A stretch of 9,259 bases of DNA, taken from NCBI GenBank assembly GCA_016210895.1, contig JACQTG010000096.1:1-9259 (forward strand), in the 5' to 3' direction. The number at the start of each line of letters is the position of its first letter. The stretch's first letter is position 1. Positions 2,434 through 7,960 of this stretch are shown here, in pieces. The notes beneath the pieces are model-generated. The model did no database searches and was not told the origin of the DNA. It saw only the letters and a list, made by a program, of their open reading frames with translations. A program made the position numbers and the translations under genes. The stretch is from Acidobacteriota bacterium. Lineage in GTDB: Bacteria > Acidobacteriota > Terriglobia > Acidoferrales > 2-02-FULL-67-57.

Positions 2434-4488
2434 ATGAAGAACTCCAAACGGCTGTTGCTGACGCTGGGCTTCACCCTCCTCGCCGGGTCCGGCTTTTCTC
2501 TGCTTGCCCGCCCGCTGACTCCGGCCGCGGCTGACCCGGCGGTCGAACAGGAGACCCAGCGGCGCGCCCAGGCCTACTACCATTATTCGCTCGGCCACCT
2601 CTACGAGGAGATGGCCGGCGCGACCGGCCGCACCGATTATCTCGAGCGCGCCATCCAGGAGTTCAAGCAGGCGCTCACCTACGACCCCGACTCGACTCTC
2701 CTCACCGTGCGCCTGGCTGAAGCCTATCGCCGCGCCGGGCGCATCCGCGACGCGGTGCTCGAAGCCGAAGCCGTGGTCAAGGCCGACCCGAAAAACCTGC
2801 CGGCACGGCGCTTGCTCGCGCGCATTTATCTGCAAACGCTGGGCGAGCTCCAGCCGGGCCAGGCCAACAGGCGCACCCTGGAGTTGGCCATCGAACAGTA
2901 CGAAGCCATCGTCGGCCTGGCACCGGACGACCTCGAGTCGCGGCTGTTCCTCGCCCGGCTCTACCGCCTCAACAGCCAGCCGGATAAAGCCGAAGCCACG
3001 CTGAAGGAGGTGCTCGCCTCCGAGCCGCGTTCCGAGCAGGTGCTGGCGGCGCTGGCCCAGCTTTACACCGAGCAGGGGCAGTACGAGCGCGCCATCGAAC
3101 TGCTCCGGGAAGCGACCGACCAGGAGCCGTCGAGCGAGCTGCTGGCCACGCTGGCCTATGCCTACGAGCAGGGCGGCGACTCCGACAACGCCATCGCCGC
3201 TTATCGTCGCGCCCTGGAGCAAGACTCCGGCAACAGTGAAATCCGGCAGCGGCTCGCGCAAGCCCTGCTGGACGCGGCGCGCTACGACGAGGCCCTGAGC
3301 GAATACCAGACCCTGATCCGGCAGAACCCAGAGGATTTCCAGACCTACTTGCGGCTGTCGCAAATCCATCGCCATCGCGGCGACTTTGAGCAGGCCGGCG
3401 CCTACCTGGATCGCGCGGAAGAGATTTCTCCCGACAACCTGGAGATTGGCTTCAACCGCGCCCTGCTCTACGAAGCCGGGGGCAAGTTCGCCGAAGCGGT
3501 GGAAACGCTGACCGACCTGGTGGCCTCGGTCACGCGCACCGATGGCCAGAACGACCGCGCGCGCGCCCTCCTGCTCGAGCAACTGGGGATGCTGCATCGG
3601 CGGCTGGAAAACTTCGACGCCGCCGTCCAGAGCTTCGAGTTGCTCCTGGAGTTGGACGACGAGCACGCCGCGCGTGCCTACACGCAGATCATCGAGACGC
3701 TGCGCCAGAGCCACGACCTCAACGCCGCCATCGCCCGCGCCCGCCAAGCCCGGGAGCGCTTTCCCGAGATCTCGGGTTTCCGCCTGCAACTCGCCACCCT
3801 GCTCGGCGAACACGGTGATTTGGCGGAAGCGGAGCAGCTCGCGCGCGCGGCGCTCGACGGCCAGCCCGAAGACCGCGAAGTCTACCTGGCCCTGGCGCAA
3901 ATCTACGAGCGCAACAAACGGTATCAGGACGCCGAACAGGTGGTGGATGCCGCGCAGCGGCTGTCGGCAAGCCCCGCCGAGCTCGAGTACGTCCACTTCC
4001 TGCGCGGCGCCATCTACGAGCGGCAAAAAAAGCACGACCTGGCCGAGCAGGAGTTCCGCCAGGTGCTCGAGATGAACCCGCGCAATGCCCTGGCGCTCAA
4101 CTACCTGGGCTATATGTTCGCCGACCAGGGCGTGCAGCTGGACGAATCGGTCGCGTTGGTCAAGCGTGCCCTGGACATTGACCCCTACAACGGCGCCTAT
4201 CTCGACAGCCTGGGCTGGGCCTACTATCGCCAGGAGAAGCTTGACCTGGCCGAAGAGTACTTGCGCCGGGCGGTCGAGCGCGTCCGGCGCGACCCCACCG
4301 TCCACGATCATCTTGGCGACCTCTACGAAAAGCTCGGCCGGCTCGACCTCGCCCGGCACCACTGGGAGCGCTCACTCGCCGAGTGGAAGCGCGTGCCCAA
4401 GACCGAGTTCGACACCGAGGCCTACGGCCAGGTCGAAGCCAAGCTGCGCGCCTTGCGTGCGCGCCTGCCGCAGCAAACCAAGAAGTAG
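2434..4488 (+). CDS. Exported tetratricopeptide-repeat (TPR) protein
   Basis: The product is 684 residues. The N-terminus looks like a signal peptide: basic MKNSKR, a hydrophobic run at 7-25, then a Pro/Ala-rich stretch with a possible signal peptidase I site near AAA-DP (32-34). It is therefore probably periplasmic or otherwise exported. From about 47 to 650 it is nearly all TPR helices with the usual small, large and Pro positions, for example around 170-198, 202-232, 236-266, 302-334, 480-512 and 516-549. The C-terminal block LNYLGYMFADQG (555-566) plus YLDSLGWAYYRQEKLDLAEE (589-608) is typical of large bacterial TPR proteins encoded next to ispE. No enzymatic domain is seen, so it probably acts as a protein-binding scaffold; the partner is unknown. 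I prefer the ATG at 2434 over the TTG at 2368 because a promoter covers 2368-2396 and the signal peptide starts at the ATG; GGGGGGAG lies about 12 bases upstream. It sits 18 bases before ispE and is probably co-transcribed with it. Confidence 0.88.
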   Translation: MKNSKRLLLTLGFTLLAGSGFSLLARPLTPAAADPAVEQETQRRAQAYYHYSLGHLYEEMAGATGRTDYLERAIQEFKQALTYDPDSTLLTVRLAEAYRRAGRIRDAVLEAEAVVKADPKNLPARRLLARIYLQTLGELQPGQANRRTLELAIEQYEAIVGLAPDDLESRLFLARLYRLNSQPDKAEATLKEVLASEPRSEQVLAALAQLYTEQGQYERAIELLREATDQEPSSELLATLAYAYEQGGDSDNAIAAYRRALEQDSGNSEIRQRLAQALLDAARYDEALSEYQTLIRQNPEDFQTYLRLSQIHRHRGDFEQAGAYLDRAEEISPDNLEIGFNRALLYEAGGKFAEAVETLTDLVASVTRTDGQNDRARALLLEQLGMLHRRLENFDAAVQSFELLLELDDEHAARAYTQIIETLRQSHDLNAAIARARQARERFPEISGFRLQLATLLGEHGDLAEAEQLARAALDGQPEDREVYLALAQIYERNKRYQDAEQVVDAAQRLSASPAELEYVHFLRGAIYERQKKHDLAEQEFRQVLEMNPRNALALNYLGYMFADQGVQLDESVALVKRALDIDPYNGAYLDSLGWAYYRQEKLDLAEEYLRRAVERVRRDPTVHDHLGDLYEKLGRLDLARHHWERSLAEWKRVPKTEFDTEAYGQVEAKLRALRARLPQQTKK

Positions 4489-4506
4489 GCACACGTCGCC
4501 CGCCGG

Positions 4507-5397
4507 ATGAACGATTGGCTTGGACTTCCTGCCTTCGCCAAGATCAATCTCGGGCTGGAGCTGCTGGGCCGTCGTCCCGACGGCTACTCGGAGATTGCCA
4601 CCCTCTACCAGACGGTTCGTCTGGCTGACCGTCTGCGGCTGCGCCTGCGCCGGTCCCCCGAGATCCGTTTGTGTGTGCGCGGCGATGGCGTCCCCGCCGA
4701 CCGCGGCAACCTGGTCTGGCGGGCAGTGGCGCTCGCGCGGCGGCGATTCGGCATCCAGCAGGGAGTCGAGGTGGAGCTGGAAAAAAACATCCCCGTAAGC
4801 CGTGGGCTCGGGGGCGGCTCAAGCGACGCCGCCGCTGCGCTCGTGGGCTTGCTGCGCCTGGCAGGCCGCAAAGCGGAGTTGAGCGAGTTGGTGCGCCTGG
4901 GAGCGCGCTTGGGTGCCGATGTGCCGTTCTTTTTCCTCGGCGGGCGCGCCTTGGGCGTGGGGCGTGGCGATGAAGTGCACGCGCTTGACGATCTCCCCCA
5001 GACCTACTGCGTGCTGGTCTGTCCCGAGCGGTCGATGGCGACCCGCTCGGCCTACTCCTGGGCGGTTGGGTTGACACCCCGGCGGCGAGCGGCTATCCTA
5101 GGCGGCTTCTCTTCACCGCTCAGGCCACTCGGGGGGCTGGGGAACGATTTCGAAGCCATCGTCTTTCCCCGCTTCCCGGAACTTGCTAGAATAAAGCGCA
5201 CGCTGGCGGCGACAGGCGCTCAGGTGGCAGCGCTGAGCGGGAGCGGTTCTACGGTTTTTGGGCTGTTCAGCCAACACGCGGCGGCCGCGCGGGTGGCACG
5301 GCGGCCCGTAGCCCGAGCAAGGGTTTTCCTCACGGAAACGCTCGCACGCTCTGCGTACGCACGGGCGCTCGGCCTCTGGGGAGTCGTCCAGCGGTAG
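4507..5397 (+). CDS. ispE: 4-diphosphocytidyl-2-C-methyl-D-erythritol kinase IspE
   Basis: IspE phosphorylates the 2-hydroxyl of 4-diphosphocytidyl-2-C-methylerythritol with ATP, the fourth step of the MEP isoprenoid pathway. It is a cytosolic GHMP kinase. The 296 residues contain AKIN (11-14, with the conserved Lys), the ATP loop GLGGGSSDA (100-108), GADVPFFF (136-143, Asp138 being the expected catalytic base) and the C-terminal NDFE (213-216) and SGSGS (244-248) motifs. Two positions differ from the usual pattern: GYS at 26-28 where GYH is normal, and SRGLGGG instead of GAGLGGG or GGGLGGG. The start lacks a clear Shine-Dalgarno; translation may be coupled to the TPR gene ending 18 bases upstream. 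The family core ends near residue 286, and the last six residues (WGVVQR) and the TAG are encoded within tRNA-Gln. Two promoter-like motifs lie inside the gene. Confidence 0.95.
   Translation: MNDWLGLPAFAKINLGLELLGRRPDGYSEIATLYQTVRLADRLRLRLRRSPEIRLCVRGDGVPADRGNLVWRAVALARRRFGIQQGVEVELEKNIPVSRGLGGGSSDAAAALVGLLRLAGRKAELSELVRLGARLGADVPFFFLGGRALGVGRGDEVHALDDLPQTYCVLVCPERSMATRSAYSWAVGLTPRRRAAILGGFSSPLRPLGGLGNDFEAIVFPRFPELARIKRTLAATGAQVAALSGSGSTVFGLFSQHAAAARVARRPVARARVFLTETLARSAYARALGLWGVVQR
5071..5099 (+). promoter_or_regulatory. Candidate internal promoter in ispE (TTGACA / TATCCT)
   Basis: A perfect TTGACA (5071-5076) is followed after 17 bases by TATCCT (5094-5099), which matches the -10 consensus at four of six positions. 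Initiation would be near 5106, about 270 bases before tRNA-Gln. It uses TTG, ACA and CTA codons, which this GC-rich gene otherwise mostly avoids. It could give ispE-independent transcription of tRNA-Gln and prs. The -10 is imperfect, so this is a candidate only. Confidence 0.4.
5184..5192 (+). promoter_or_regulatory. Candidate extended -10 promoter in ispE (TGCTAGAAT)
   Basis: TGC followed by TAGAAT (5187-5192) is an extended -10 with five of six matches. No good -35 lies upstream (TTTCCC at 5164-5169 is weak), which an extended -10 can tolerate. Transcription would begin near 5199, about 180 bases before tRNA-Gln. The motif is spelled in ispE by the adjacent codons AGA and ATA, unusual choices in this GC-rich gene. 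Confidence 0.4.
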
Positions 5398-5450
5398 GAC
5401 ATCTGCCTTTGGAGCAGAAGACCTAGGTTCGAATCCTAGCTCCCCAGCCA
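5377..5450 (+). tRNA. tRNA-Gln (anticodon UUG), CCA encoded
   Basis: The full cloverleaf can be folded by eye. The acceptor stem TGGGGAG (5377-5383) pairs with CTCCCCA (5440-5446), 7 bp. The D stem GTCC/GGAC (5386-5389 with 5397-5400) closes loop AGCGGTA. The anticodon stem TCTGC/GCAGA (5402-5406 with 5414-5418) has loop CTTTGGA, giving anticodon TTG at 5409-5411, which reads CAA. The T stem CTAGG/CCTAG (5423-5427 with 5435-5439) has loop TTCGAAT. Discriminator G5447 is followed by a genomic CCA (5448-5450). The gene overlaps the last 21 bases of ispE on the same strand, so the ispE TAG lies at the D-loop/D-stem junction. prs follows 35 bases later, so the tRNA is probably cut out of a longer transcript by RNase P and 3'-end nucleases. 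Confidence 0.97.
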
Positions 5451-5476
5451 ACAGAAAGACGCCAGTCGGGAGAGTG

Positions 5477-5481
5477 GGAGG
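5477..5481 (+). promoter_or_regulatory. Ribosome binding site that sets the prs start
   Basis: GGAGG at 5477-5481 stands four bases before GTG 5486. The in-frame GTG at 5474 is one base before this motif and has only GGGAGA directly abutting it. This favours 5486, which also gives the family's usual N-terminus. Confidence 0.65.
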
Positions 5482-5485
5482 ACAG

Positions 5486-6430
5486 GTGGATCCGGATCGG
5501 CTGAAAATCTTCAGCGGCAGTGGCAATCGCGTCCTGGCGGAGGCCATTTGCGAGGAACTCGACGTTCCCCTGGGCGACTCCATCCAGGGAAACTTCAGCG
5601 ACGGCGAAGTTTACTTTCAGATTCAGGAGAACGTCCGCGGCGCCGATGTTTTCGTGGTGCAGCCCACCTGCCACCCGGTGGATACGCACCTGATGGAACT
5701 GCTGCTGATGATCGACGCCTTCAAGCGCGCCTCGGCGGCGCGCATCACCGCTGTCATCCCCTATTACGGCTACGCCCGCCAGGACCGCAAGGACAAGCCG
5801 CGCGTGCCCATCTCGGCCAAACTCGTCGCCGACCTGATCACCACCGCCGGGGCGAGCCGCGTGCTCTGCCTCGACCTGCACGCGCCGCAGATTCAAGGCT
5901 ACTTCAACATTCCCGTCGACCACCTCTACGCCACCCCGGTCCTGCTCGACTACTTCAACGCCAAGAAACTTCCGGAACTGATCGTGGTGGCGCCCGACGC
6001 CGGGGGGGTAGAGCGGGCGCGGTTTTTCGCCAAGAAGATGGACACGCCGCTGGCCATCGTCGACAAGCGGCGCGTAGACGTGGACGTGGCCGAGTTGATG
6101 AACGTCATCGGCGAGGTAGAAGGTCACACGGCCTTGATCATTGACGACATCGTGGACACCGCCGGCACGCTGGTCAAAACGGTCGAGGCGCTGCTCGAGC
6201 GCGGCGCGCGCGGCGTCTACGCCGCCTGCACCCACGCGGTTTTATCCGGCCCGGCCTTGCAGCGCATTGGCGACTCGCCGATGAAAGAGTTGGTGGTCAC
6301 AGACTCGATTCCGCTGAATGCAGAGGCCCAGCAGTGCGACCGGCTGACGGTGCTGAGCGTGGCGCCGCTGCTCGCCCGCGCCATCCGCTCCATCCACGAG
6401 GAGACGTCGGTCAGCACGCTGTTTGTCTAG
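5486..6430 (+). CDS. prs: Ribose-phosphate pyrophosphokinase (PRPP synthetase)
   Basis: Prs transfers pyrophosphate from ATP to ribose 5-phosphate to give PRPP, the precursor for purine, pyrimidine, NAD, His and Trp synthesis, in the cytosol. From GTG 5486 the product has 314 residues, close to E. coli Prs (315). Class I features are present: FSDGE (37-41), the ATP-binding segment RQDRKDKPRVPISAK (98-112), His132 in DLHAPQIQGYF, PDAGG (170-174), the catalytic flexible-loop KRR (194-196) and the PRPP-binding loop DDIVDTAGTL (220-229). The C-terminus SVSTLF is standard. KRR is followed by VD rather than the more common P. A four-residue-longer product from GTG 5474 is possible but has a poorer ribosome site. 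It lies directly behind tRNA-Gln, so its mRNA 5' end is probably made by tRNA processing or by promoters inside ispE. Confidence 0.97.
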   Translation: MDPDRLKIFSGSGNRVLAEAICEELDVPLGDSIQGNFSDGEVYFQIQENVRGADVFVVQPTCHPVDTHLMELLLMIDAFKRASAARITAVIPYYGYARQDRKDKPRVPISAKLVADLITTAGASRVLCLDLHAPQIQGYFNIPVDHLYATPVLLDYFNAKKLPELIVVAPDAGGVERARFFAKKMDTPLAIVDKRRVDVDVAELMNVIGEVEGHTALIIDDIVDTAGTLVKTVEALLERGARGVYAACTHAVLSGPALQRIGDSPMKELVVTDSIPLNAEAQQCDRLTVLSVAPLLARAIRSIHEETSVSTLFV

Positions 6431-6449
6431 CGGCAACGGAGAAGCGGGA

Positions 6450-6468
6450 CACCGGCGAGACGCCGGTG
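6450..6468 (+). repeat. Perfect 8-bp palindromic hairpin between prs and rplY
   Basis: CACCGGCG (6450-6457) and CGCCGGTG (6461-6468) are exact reverse complements around loop AGA. The stem lies 19 bases after the prs stop and is not followed by a T-run, so it is not a standard intrinsic terminator. The core GGCGAGACGCC resembles short dispersed palindromes that I recall from intergenic regions of several phyla (REP-like). No second copy is seen in this window. It could also act as a processing or mRNA-stability stem. Confidence 0.6.
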
Positions 6469-6508
6469 CCACCGGAGCAGTGAGTGCCCTACCCTTGGGA
6501 GGTAGAAG

Positions 6509-7231
6509 ATGGAAGCCATTGTCTTGGAAGCGCAGCCCCGGGAAGAGCGGGGGAAGAACTCCATGCGGCGGCTGCGCCTAGCGGGCCAACTGCCCGCGGT
6601 GGTCTACGGCGAGAAAAAGGAGCCGCTGGCGGTCTCGGTTGACCCGCGCGCGGTGGAGAAGATTCTCCACTCGGAGGCCGGCCACAACGCCATCTTCACC
6701 TTGCAGATCAAAGGCCAGGGGAAAACGTCGGCCATGATCAAAGACTGGCAGTACGAACCGGTCAAAGGGGAGTTGCTCCACATCGATTTCCTGCGCATTG
6801 CGCTCGACGTGCGGCTGAAAGTGAACGTTCCGGTGGTCACCGCGGGCGAGCCGGTGGGGGTCAGGCAGCAGGGCGGAGTGCTGGAATTCATCAACCGCGA
6901 GATCGAAATCGAATGCCTGCCCGCCGACATCCCTGATCACCTTACGATTGACATCAGCGAGTTGAAAATCGGCCAGAGCTTCCGCGTGGGTGACCTCAAA
7001 ACCGACCGCCGCTACCAGGTGCTGACCGATGCCGACCAGGTCATCGTCCACGTGGTGGCGCCCAAGGGCATCGAGGAAGAGAAGCCAGCGGAAGAGGCGG
7101 TCGCAGCCGAGCTGGCCGAGCCCGAACTAATTCGGAAGGCCAAAGCCGAAGAGCCGGGAGCCGAAGAAGCAGCGGCACCTAGTCCCGCTGCCCCCGAAAA
7201 AACCGAAAAGGGGGAGAAGAAGAAGGGTTAG
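6509..7231 (+). CDS. rplY: 50S ribosomal protein L25, long CTC/TL5 form
   Basis: L25 binds 5S rRNA at the central protuberance of the large subunit. The product is 240 residues, against about 95 for the short E. coli form. Residues 1-95 are the L25 RNA-binding beta barrel, with a basic start (REERGKNSMRRLR, 11-23) and the typical HIDFLRI (91-97). Residues 98-184 are the TL5/CTC C-terminal beta domain, including LTIDISELKIGQSFRVGDL (145-163). The tail from about 186 is low-complexity Glu/Ala/Lys ending in KKKG and is probably disordered. The ATG has an excellent site, GGGAGGT at 6497-6503, five bases upstream. The prs-rplY-pth order is conserved in many bacteria. Confidence 0.96.
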   Translation: MEAIVLEAQPREERGKNSMRRLRLAGQLPAVVYGEKKEPLAVSVDPRAVEKILHSEAGHNAIFTLQIKGQGKTSAMIKDWQYEPVKGELLHIDFLRIALDVRLKVNVPVVTAGEPVGVRQQGGVLEFINREIEIECLPADIPDHLTIDISELKIGQSFRVGDLKTDRRYQVLTDADQVIVHVVAPKGIEEEKPAEEAVAAELAEPELIRKAKAEEPGAEEAAAPSPAAPEKTEKGEKKKG

Positions 7232-7234
7232 CGG

Positions 7235-7338
7235 GCCCCGTTCCAACCCCGCATGCAGGGCTAGAGGCGTAGCACGGGAATGAGAGCAGGAGGCTCCGAC
7301 GCCAAAAGGGAGCGGAGGGAAAAAAGTTGGAACGGGGC
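7235..7338 (+). repeat. 13-bp perfect inverted repeat enclosing the pth leader
   Basis: GCCCCGTTCCAAC (7235-7247) is the exact reverse complement of GTTGGAACGGGGC (7326-7338), with 78 bases between. Nested shorter complements GGCGT/ACGCC (7266-7270 with 7299-7303) and GAGC/GCTC (7284-7287 with 7293-7296) could form an inner branch. The right arm ends four bases before the preferred pth GTG, so pairing would cover the likely ribosome landing site. It may be a regulatory leader, an mRNA-processing structure or a small inserted element; none is a recognised riboswitch class. Confidence 0.55.
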
Positions 7339-7342
7339 GGGT

Positions 7343-7960
7343 GTGCGGTTGATCGTTGGCCTCGGCAATCCGGGGACGCGTTATCAGGATACCCCCCACA
7401 ACCTCGGCTTTCGCGTCGTCGAGCGGCTGGCGGAGGAGGCGGGGGGCAAGCTTGGGCAGCGCGAAGCCCAGGCGCGTACGGCGCGGACACGATTGGAGGG
7501 AAGCGAAGTAGTGCTGGCACAGCCACAAACGTTTATGAACGCGAGCGGGTTGGCCGTGGCGGCGCTTCTCGCGCGCTACCGCCTGTCGCCGGCGGACTTG
7601 ATCGTGGTGGCTGACGATGTGGCGCTGCCCTGGGGGACGTTGCGCATTCGTGAACAGGGGAGCGCCGGAGGCCACAACGGCCTGGCCTCGATCATCGGGG
7701 CACTCGACAGCGATGCCTTTGTGCGTGTGCGCGTAGGCATTCGTCCCGAGTCCGAAGTTTCGGGGCCGGCGGACGACCTGGCGGACTATGTGCTCTCGCC
7801 CCTGCCGAGCCGCGCTCGCGTCTGGGCGGAGGAGGCGGTCGAGCAGGCGGCGGAAGCTGTGCGGGCAATTCTGCGGGATGGGACGAAGCGCGCGATGACC
7901 CGCTTCAATCGACGCGTGGCGGAACCCAAGCTTCCCGACGGGCCCGCAGGGAACTCTTGA
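7343..7960 (+). CDS. pth: Peptidyl-tRNA hydrolase
   Basis: Pth cleaves the ester bond of peptidyl-tRNAs that drop off the ribosome, recycling tRNA; it is essential in most bacteria and cytosolic. From GTG 7343 the product is 205 residues (E. coli 194) and begins MRLIVGLGNPG as the family does. Expected active-site residues are present: Asn9, His19 (in TPHN), Asn66 (QTFMNASG), Asp91 and Asn112 (GSAGGHNGL). The usual HDDLDLP reads ADDVALP here, keeping the catalytic Asp but losing the flanking His and the second conserved Asp. An in-frame ATG at 7280 would add 21 basic, non-family residues; I prefer 7343 on homology, although its ribosome site (GGGGCGG, 7334-7340) is unconvincing. The upstream gap is spanned by a 13-bp inverted repeat. 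The stop overlaps the rpsF ribosome site. Confidence 0.94.
   Translation: MRLIVGLGNPGTRYQDTPHNLGFRVVERLAEEAGGKLGQREAQARTARTRLEGSEVVLAQPQTFMNASGLAVAALLARYRLSPADLIVVADDVALPWGTLRIREQGSAGGHNGLASIIGALDSDAFVRVRVGIRPESEVSGPADDLADYVLSPLPSRARVWAEEAVEQAAEAVRAILRDGTKRAMTRFNRRVAEPKLPDGPAGNS

Follow-up and report, generated by a model that had tools for sequence, protein, structure and literature searches.

Within the window, i.e. the whole stretch of 9,259 nucleotides of an Acidobacteriota genome that was analysed, the reading frame of ispE runs into the gene for tRNA-Gln on the same strand and ends 21 nt inside it. Comparison with related loci makes it likely that this is a tolerated overlap of gene ends, in which the D-loop of the tRNA supplies the stop codon, and that tRNA-Gln and the adjacent prs gene are transcribed mainly from a predicted promoter within ispE. 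The + strand of the window carries, in this order, purH, a gene for a TPR protein, ispE, tRNA-Gln, prs, rplY, pth, rpsF, and rplI. The prs gene adjoins tRNA-Gln directly on its 3' side. The features around the overlap are:

4507 to 5397, + strand: ispE, 4-diphosphocytidyl-2-C-methyl-D-erythritol kinase, 296 amino acids (open reading frame and TIGR00154)
5377 to 5450, + strand: tRNA-Gln (UUG), CCA encoded (ARAGORN and Rfam RF00005)
5377 to 5397, + strand: overlap, the last six ispE codons (W-G-V-V-Q-R) and TAG, equal to nt 1 to 21 of tRNA-Gln
5395 to 5397, + strand: ispE stop codon TAG, nt 19 to 21 of tRNA-Gln
5474 to 6430, + strand: prs, ribose-phosphate diphosphokinase, starting at GTG 5474 or at GTG 5486 behind GGGAGG
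6509 to 7231, + strand: rplY (bL25), downstream on the same strand
7280 to 7960, + strand: pth, peptidyl-tRNA hydrolase, downstream on the same strand

The overlap is real and both genes look intact, which confirms the preliminary description of this DNA in its observed part. The ispE frame is open from 4507 into the tRNA and ends there with TGG GGA GTC GTC CAG CGG TAG, so that the stop codon (5395 to 5397) lies wholly within the tRNA gene (5377 to 5450). In standard tRNA numbering this stop presumably corresponds to U20 and A21 of the D-loop and G22 of the D-stem. IspE reaches 184.5 bits with the NCBIfam model TIGR00154 (cut-off 138.7), which matches residues 7 to 266, in agreement with the earlier view of an intact gene. 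The tRNA gene has the anticodon ttg and the final bases GCCA, and gives a full-length covariance match to Rfam RF00005 (69.3 bits, 71 of 71 model positions). The claim that the tRNA folds perfectly holds for these tRNA models, but not for the minimum-energy fold of the bare 74-mer calculated with ViennaRNA, which is not a cloverleaf, although the acceptor and T arms do pair. We do not count this energy fold against tRNA-Gln.

The preliminary description had proposed to compare the junction across relatives. In the nearest family (the family of G011), the identical 21-nt overlap is present at the DNA level in three out of five genomes (L084, L086, and L169). In the other two (L083 and L085) ispE ends ahead of the tRNA, with gaps of 21 and 30 nt, and this is the earlier stop in relatives that the preliminary description had held to count against its proposal. 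The tRNA-Gln at the overlap is probably not a spare copy, because none of the five family genomes has a second full-length match to it. Six partial matches were found in these genomes, and the five that were checked correspond to tRNA-Lys or tRNA-Asn. The one outlying genome that was checked, L179 (G013), possesses a second tRNA-Gln gene with the anticodon CUG.

For the wider order, loci L081 to L172 (92 loci) were collected, and after the duplicates L124 and L129 and the fragments L166, L168, L171, and L172 were dropped, 86 usable loci and the window remained. A tRNA-Gln gene lies within 800 nt after ispE in six of the 86 loci, and prs follows ispE in all 82 order loci whose flank measures 600 nt or more. 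A broad survey, with L173 to L185 left out, comprised 261 loci, reduced to 230 distinct ispE loci once 31 that shared their last 200 nt with another had been removed. Ninety-nine of them have tRNA-Gln at most 800 nt downstream. The ispE frame ends inside tRNA-Gln in 12 of these 99, a proportion that is not an unbiased overlap rate because the samples outside the order are the 30 best loci per search, two of the searches being within the same phylum. The 12 frames end at nt 21 (seven loci), nt 22 (one) or nt 23 (one), all of them with a UAR stop in the D-loop, at nt 10 (two) and at nt 64 (one). Locus L005 was also considered as a 21-nt overlap and rejected, its ispE frame having an earlier stop with a gap of +21.

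The overlapping loci fall into three broad groups. The first comprises the window and the three genomes of the nearest family. The second comprises L061, L195, L202, L203, L206, and L207, in the class around a record named 'uncultured beta proteobacterium', and the third L047 and L219, in a phylum that also contains Desulfocapsa and Deltaproteobacteria records. In L202, ispE ends at nt 10 with a TAG that begins at nt 8 of the tRNA, and in L203 the stop falls in the T arm, with its end at nt 64.

A similar picture was obtained with proteins. The best 120 matches from each of two protein searches correspond to 147 different IspE proteins; the named nearest ones belong mostly to Acidobacteriota metagenome-assembled genomes (Terriglobia, Acidobacteria, Acidoferrales, and Acidiferrales), and one to Xenobia. 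The C-terminal signature VV[QH]x, expected from a stop in the D-loop, occurs in 27 of the 147 listed homologues, the window and some near-copies included, and 24 of the 27 end exactly in WGVV[QH]x. These counts were read from proteins, with the DNA examined for a minority of the signature-bearing ones. Five of the 147 use the second frame and pass through the tRNA from end to end (GRTSAFGAE...), and one ends in the third frame with a stop in the T arm. The IspE of P0008, also one of the 147, continues past WGVVQR with Q-D-V-C-L-W, presumably encoded by a tRNA without the D-loop stop.

On trees of 93 of the 147 listed proteins (the closest ones and four outgroup rows), overlap and its lack are separated by seven changes with the tail included and by ten with the tail removed, at least four of them forced by starred branches; in these counts gains are indistinguishable from losses, and proteins without the signature, their DNA mostly unexamined, were scored as lacking the overlap. 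From the sequences compared, the overlap is not a fixed device: some relatives have it and others do not, any of the three frames may be used, and it seems to have arisen repeatedly.

The recurrence of the D-loop stop is related to the reading frames of tRNA-Gln itself. In 67 out of 90 distinct tRNA-Gln genes, the first stop for an open reading frame that enters at nt 1 of the tRNA is completed at nt 21, whereas the other frames are stop-free throughout in most genes (frame 2 in 68 out of 90, frame 3 in 79 out of 90). An ispE that loses its stop therefore pays little in one frame, with six added residues, and much in the other two. An ispE without its own stop before the tRNA would in frame 1 be terminated by the GGTAG or GGTAA of the D-loop, 21 nt into the tRNA. 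After the conserved Y284, the tail of IspE measures 11 to 25 amino acids (median 12, 27 proteins) with a D-loop stop and 5 to 14 (median 13, 59 proteins) where there is no overlap, and 43 to 62 when the frame passes through the entire tRNA. Matches to the three best IspE family models stop between residues 266 and 273, and those to solved IspE chains extend no further than residue 270, which places the tRNA-encoded residues in the variable tail. Judging by these lengths and matches, tRNA-Gln acts as a fallback stop for ispE with which the enzyme keeps its usual tail length, and the residues encoded by the tRNA replace an ordinary variable tail.

Two promoter-like boxes were found inside ispE:

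5071 to 5099, + strand: candidate promoter P1, TTGACA (5071 to 5076), 17 nt, TATCCT (5094 to 5099), from pattern scan and conservation
5184 to 5192, + strand: candidate promoter P2, extended -10 TGCTAGAAT, within CTT GCT AGA ATA, from conservation, the weaker case of the two

P1 was the one site found by a sigma70-like pattern scan of positions 4000 to 6500, where 0.1 were expected. It agrees with the sigma70 hexamers at ten of 12 positions, with a spacing of 17 nt (within 16 to 18), and is matched in all six relatives of the alignment. In the order set, TTGAC, a spacing of exactly 17 nt and the -10 pattern T-A-n-n-n-T are invariant in the window and in 86 out of 86 usable loci. The first T of the -10 box is the third base of codon 196 and stays the same under seven different residues (P 40, S 22, H 11, A 5, T 4, N 4, and R 1), so that P1 is conserved beyond the needs of protein coding. 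Synonymous shuffling of five ispE genes produced the motif somewhere in 216 to 546 of 20000 shuffles, and the weight of the case for P1 therefore lies on its conservation. The scan of 4000 to 6500 did not report P2. Its CTT GCT AGA is identical in the window and all five nearest-family genomes, and reads CTT GCT ACA in L107; in four of the five ispE genes that were tabulated, AGA is used just once.

These boxes lend indirect support to the earlier suggestion that ispE and tRNA-Gln could be separated by different promoters: two candidate boxes are in place and the first is kept throughout the order, and their role as promoters is predicted from sequence. P1 is kept in the order although tRNA-Gln is near in only six of the 86 loci and prs follows in all 82 with enough flank, so prs would profit from it no less than the tRNA does. 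Probably, tRNA-Gln and prs are transcribed from this candidate promoter within ispE.

According to the explanation that we favour, the sigma70-type P1, and perhaps also P2, would drive most transcription of tRNA-Gln and prs. Transcripts from P1 would start at about 5106 and carry a leader of about 270 nt. On such internal transcripts RNase P would free tRNA-Gln by removing a leader without a complete ispE, so that nothing would be lost, and prs would be translated from the 3' product of this release. As the preliminary description soundly reasoned, a shared transcript would lose its ispE stop through the cut at 5377. The conflict would be limited to transcripts that start upstream of ispE and run through the tRNA. 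On these read-through transcripts, a ribosome would have to finish ispE before the tRNA folds and is cut; otherwise a non-stop message and ribosome rescue would follow. Since the predicted internal promoter would make the supply of the tRNA independent of the ispE message, the two products need not share their source, and the conflict is probably defused in part. A tmRNA above the Rfam cut-off was detected in two of the five nearest-family genomes, and the weak matches in the other three resemble those in archaeal controls.

The overlap might instead be a regulatory switch, in which a single transcript allows either the ispE end to be translated or tRNA-Gln to mature, but not both, and the overlap is kept for this purpose. 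Tagging of a non-stop message would then lower IspE whenever the tRNA is processed, or translation would delay the tRNA. The geometry does force some exclusion on a shared transcript, and D-loop stops recur in the three broad groups. Within some clades, moreover, the overlap persists across clearly diverged sequences, so weak selection for it is possible. However, two of the five nearest-family genomes stop before the tRNA, so that the arrangement is not conserved even among close relatives, and the overlaps differ in length and use three frames. Furthermore, the conserved candidate promoter would uncouple tRNA-Gln from ispE, and the frame asymmetry accounts for the recurrence of the D-loop stop without selection for a switch. 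We consider a switch unlikely. The competition between the two products put forward in the preliminary description finds no support as a dedicated conflict or switch either, given that the overlap varies among relatives and between frames and that the residues coded by the tRNA form an ordinary variable tail.

Another explanation would combine drift with a single long transcript and no internal promoter, the TTGACA and -10 boxes being by-products of a Leu-Thr motif that IspE needs. Leu-Thr is indeed kept as amino acids in 87 of the 87 order-set sequences. Nonetheless, these residues are written TTG ACA in 80 of the 87, where own-gene codon usage predicts 1.71, the wobble T of the -10 box is constant under seven residues, and the spacing is exactly 17 in 87 out of 87. 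Skewed codons also occur in ispE outside P1: in a table of 252 codons, 283, 257, 203, and 262 deviate about as strongly as 189 and 190, which fits drift.

The genes downstream bear on the same question. Among the 164 of the 230 loci with at least 1200 nt downstream, prs and/or tRNA-Gln follow in 89 out of 89 loci with TTGAC-17-TAnnnT, in 34 out of 35 whose sole element is an in-frame TTGAC, located elsewhere in a few cases, and in 14 out of 40 with neither motif. In the class around L061 the -10 box is usually CA[ACG]AAT. With the looser motif TTGAC-17-NAnnnT, in a set of 141 loci from which most of the order set was left out by choice, 91 of the 114 loci with downstream prs or tRNA-Gln carry the motif and 23 are free of it, whereas it is present in none of the 27 loci without these genes. 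All 12 overlapping loci carry it. After correction for kinship the association of P1 with prs or tRNA-Gln is not significant, in a test that is underpowered with three starred independent pairs only, and kinship could therefore explain much of the difference between 91 of 114 and none of 27, which again leaves room for drift. On balance, drift without an internal promoter is very unlikely. An artefact of assembly or annotation, with the ispE stop or the tRNA misassembled, deserves practically no credence, since the same junction is present in three nearest-family genomes and the signature in 27 of the 147 listed homologues from several sources, and both genes score as intact.

Records with the P1 form include Acidobacteria, Geomonas, Desulfuromonas, Desulfocapsa, Nitrospirae, WOR-3, FCPU426, Elusimicrobia, Clostridia, and others, so that similar motifs precede prs or tRNA-Gln in several other phyla as well. 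A more far-reaching proposal is that P1 is held at the same ispE codons in several phyla for the transcription of tRNA-Gln and prs, where it would dictate part of IspE, namely Leu-Thr and the amino acids encoded at the -10 box. In lineages whose ispE has no stop of its own, the full-length message would then be self-limiting, as maturation of the tRNA would destroy the stop codon and IspE would be made only before the excision of the tRNA or with ribosome rescue. Taken as a whole, this proposal is doubtful.

Parts of the arrangement resemble known systems. In E. coli, Mohanty and Kushner reportedly described in 2008 that secG-leuU forms an mRNA-tRNA polycistronic transcript cut by RNase P. Similar to this case, the tRNA of the window lies downstream of a protein gene and would be released by RNase P from one transcript; unlike ispE, the protein gene of secG-leuU presumably ends before the tRNA. 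The E. coli prs gene has an internal promoter inside ispE (ychB), comparable to the candidate promoter within ispE that would drive prs here. In ispE of E. coli K-12 (L185) there is a candidate TTGATG-18-TAGAAT 338 nt before prs, at a position that differs from P1; a direct check showed that P1 and the Leu-Thr TTGACA are absent from this gene, and the E. coli annotation has no tRNA between the two genes.

Variable overlaps of protein genes with tRNAs are already known in organelle genomes, and conserved intragenic promoters are known for sigma54. In Blastocystis organelles, rps12 overlaps a same-strand tRNA-Asn by 7, 38 or 69 nt, and the length differs between close relatives through frame changes (PMC5203790). 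As in ispE, a protein reading frame runs into a same-strand tRNA to a variable extent; the setting there is an AT-rich organelle genome, whereas the present overlaps occur in bacterial genomes, with a UAR stop in the D-loop in three broad groups. In E. coli, conserved intragenic sigma54 promoters drive mRNAs with long leaders (PMC4591121). Like the candidate P1, they lie inside genes and are kept between species; they were compared mostly within Enterobacteriaceae, and P1 is a sigma70-type motif instead. Titles and abstract openings searched in the open-access literature yielded no report of an ispE/tRNA-Gln overlap or of a promoter inside ispE, including one that spans phyla.

The overlap shows that a tRNA gene can, in one frame, provide the preceding gene with a translation stop that is already in place, and this seems to have happened repeatedly. 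The candidate promoter is moreover open to direct testing, as a site apparently retained within a coding sequence in several bacterial phyla, where conservation of amino acids in ispE may reflect signals in the DNA instead of enzyme function. Full-length ispE messages, should they exist, would be natural substrates for the study of competition between the ribosome, RNase P, and ribosome rescue.
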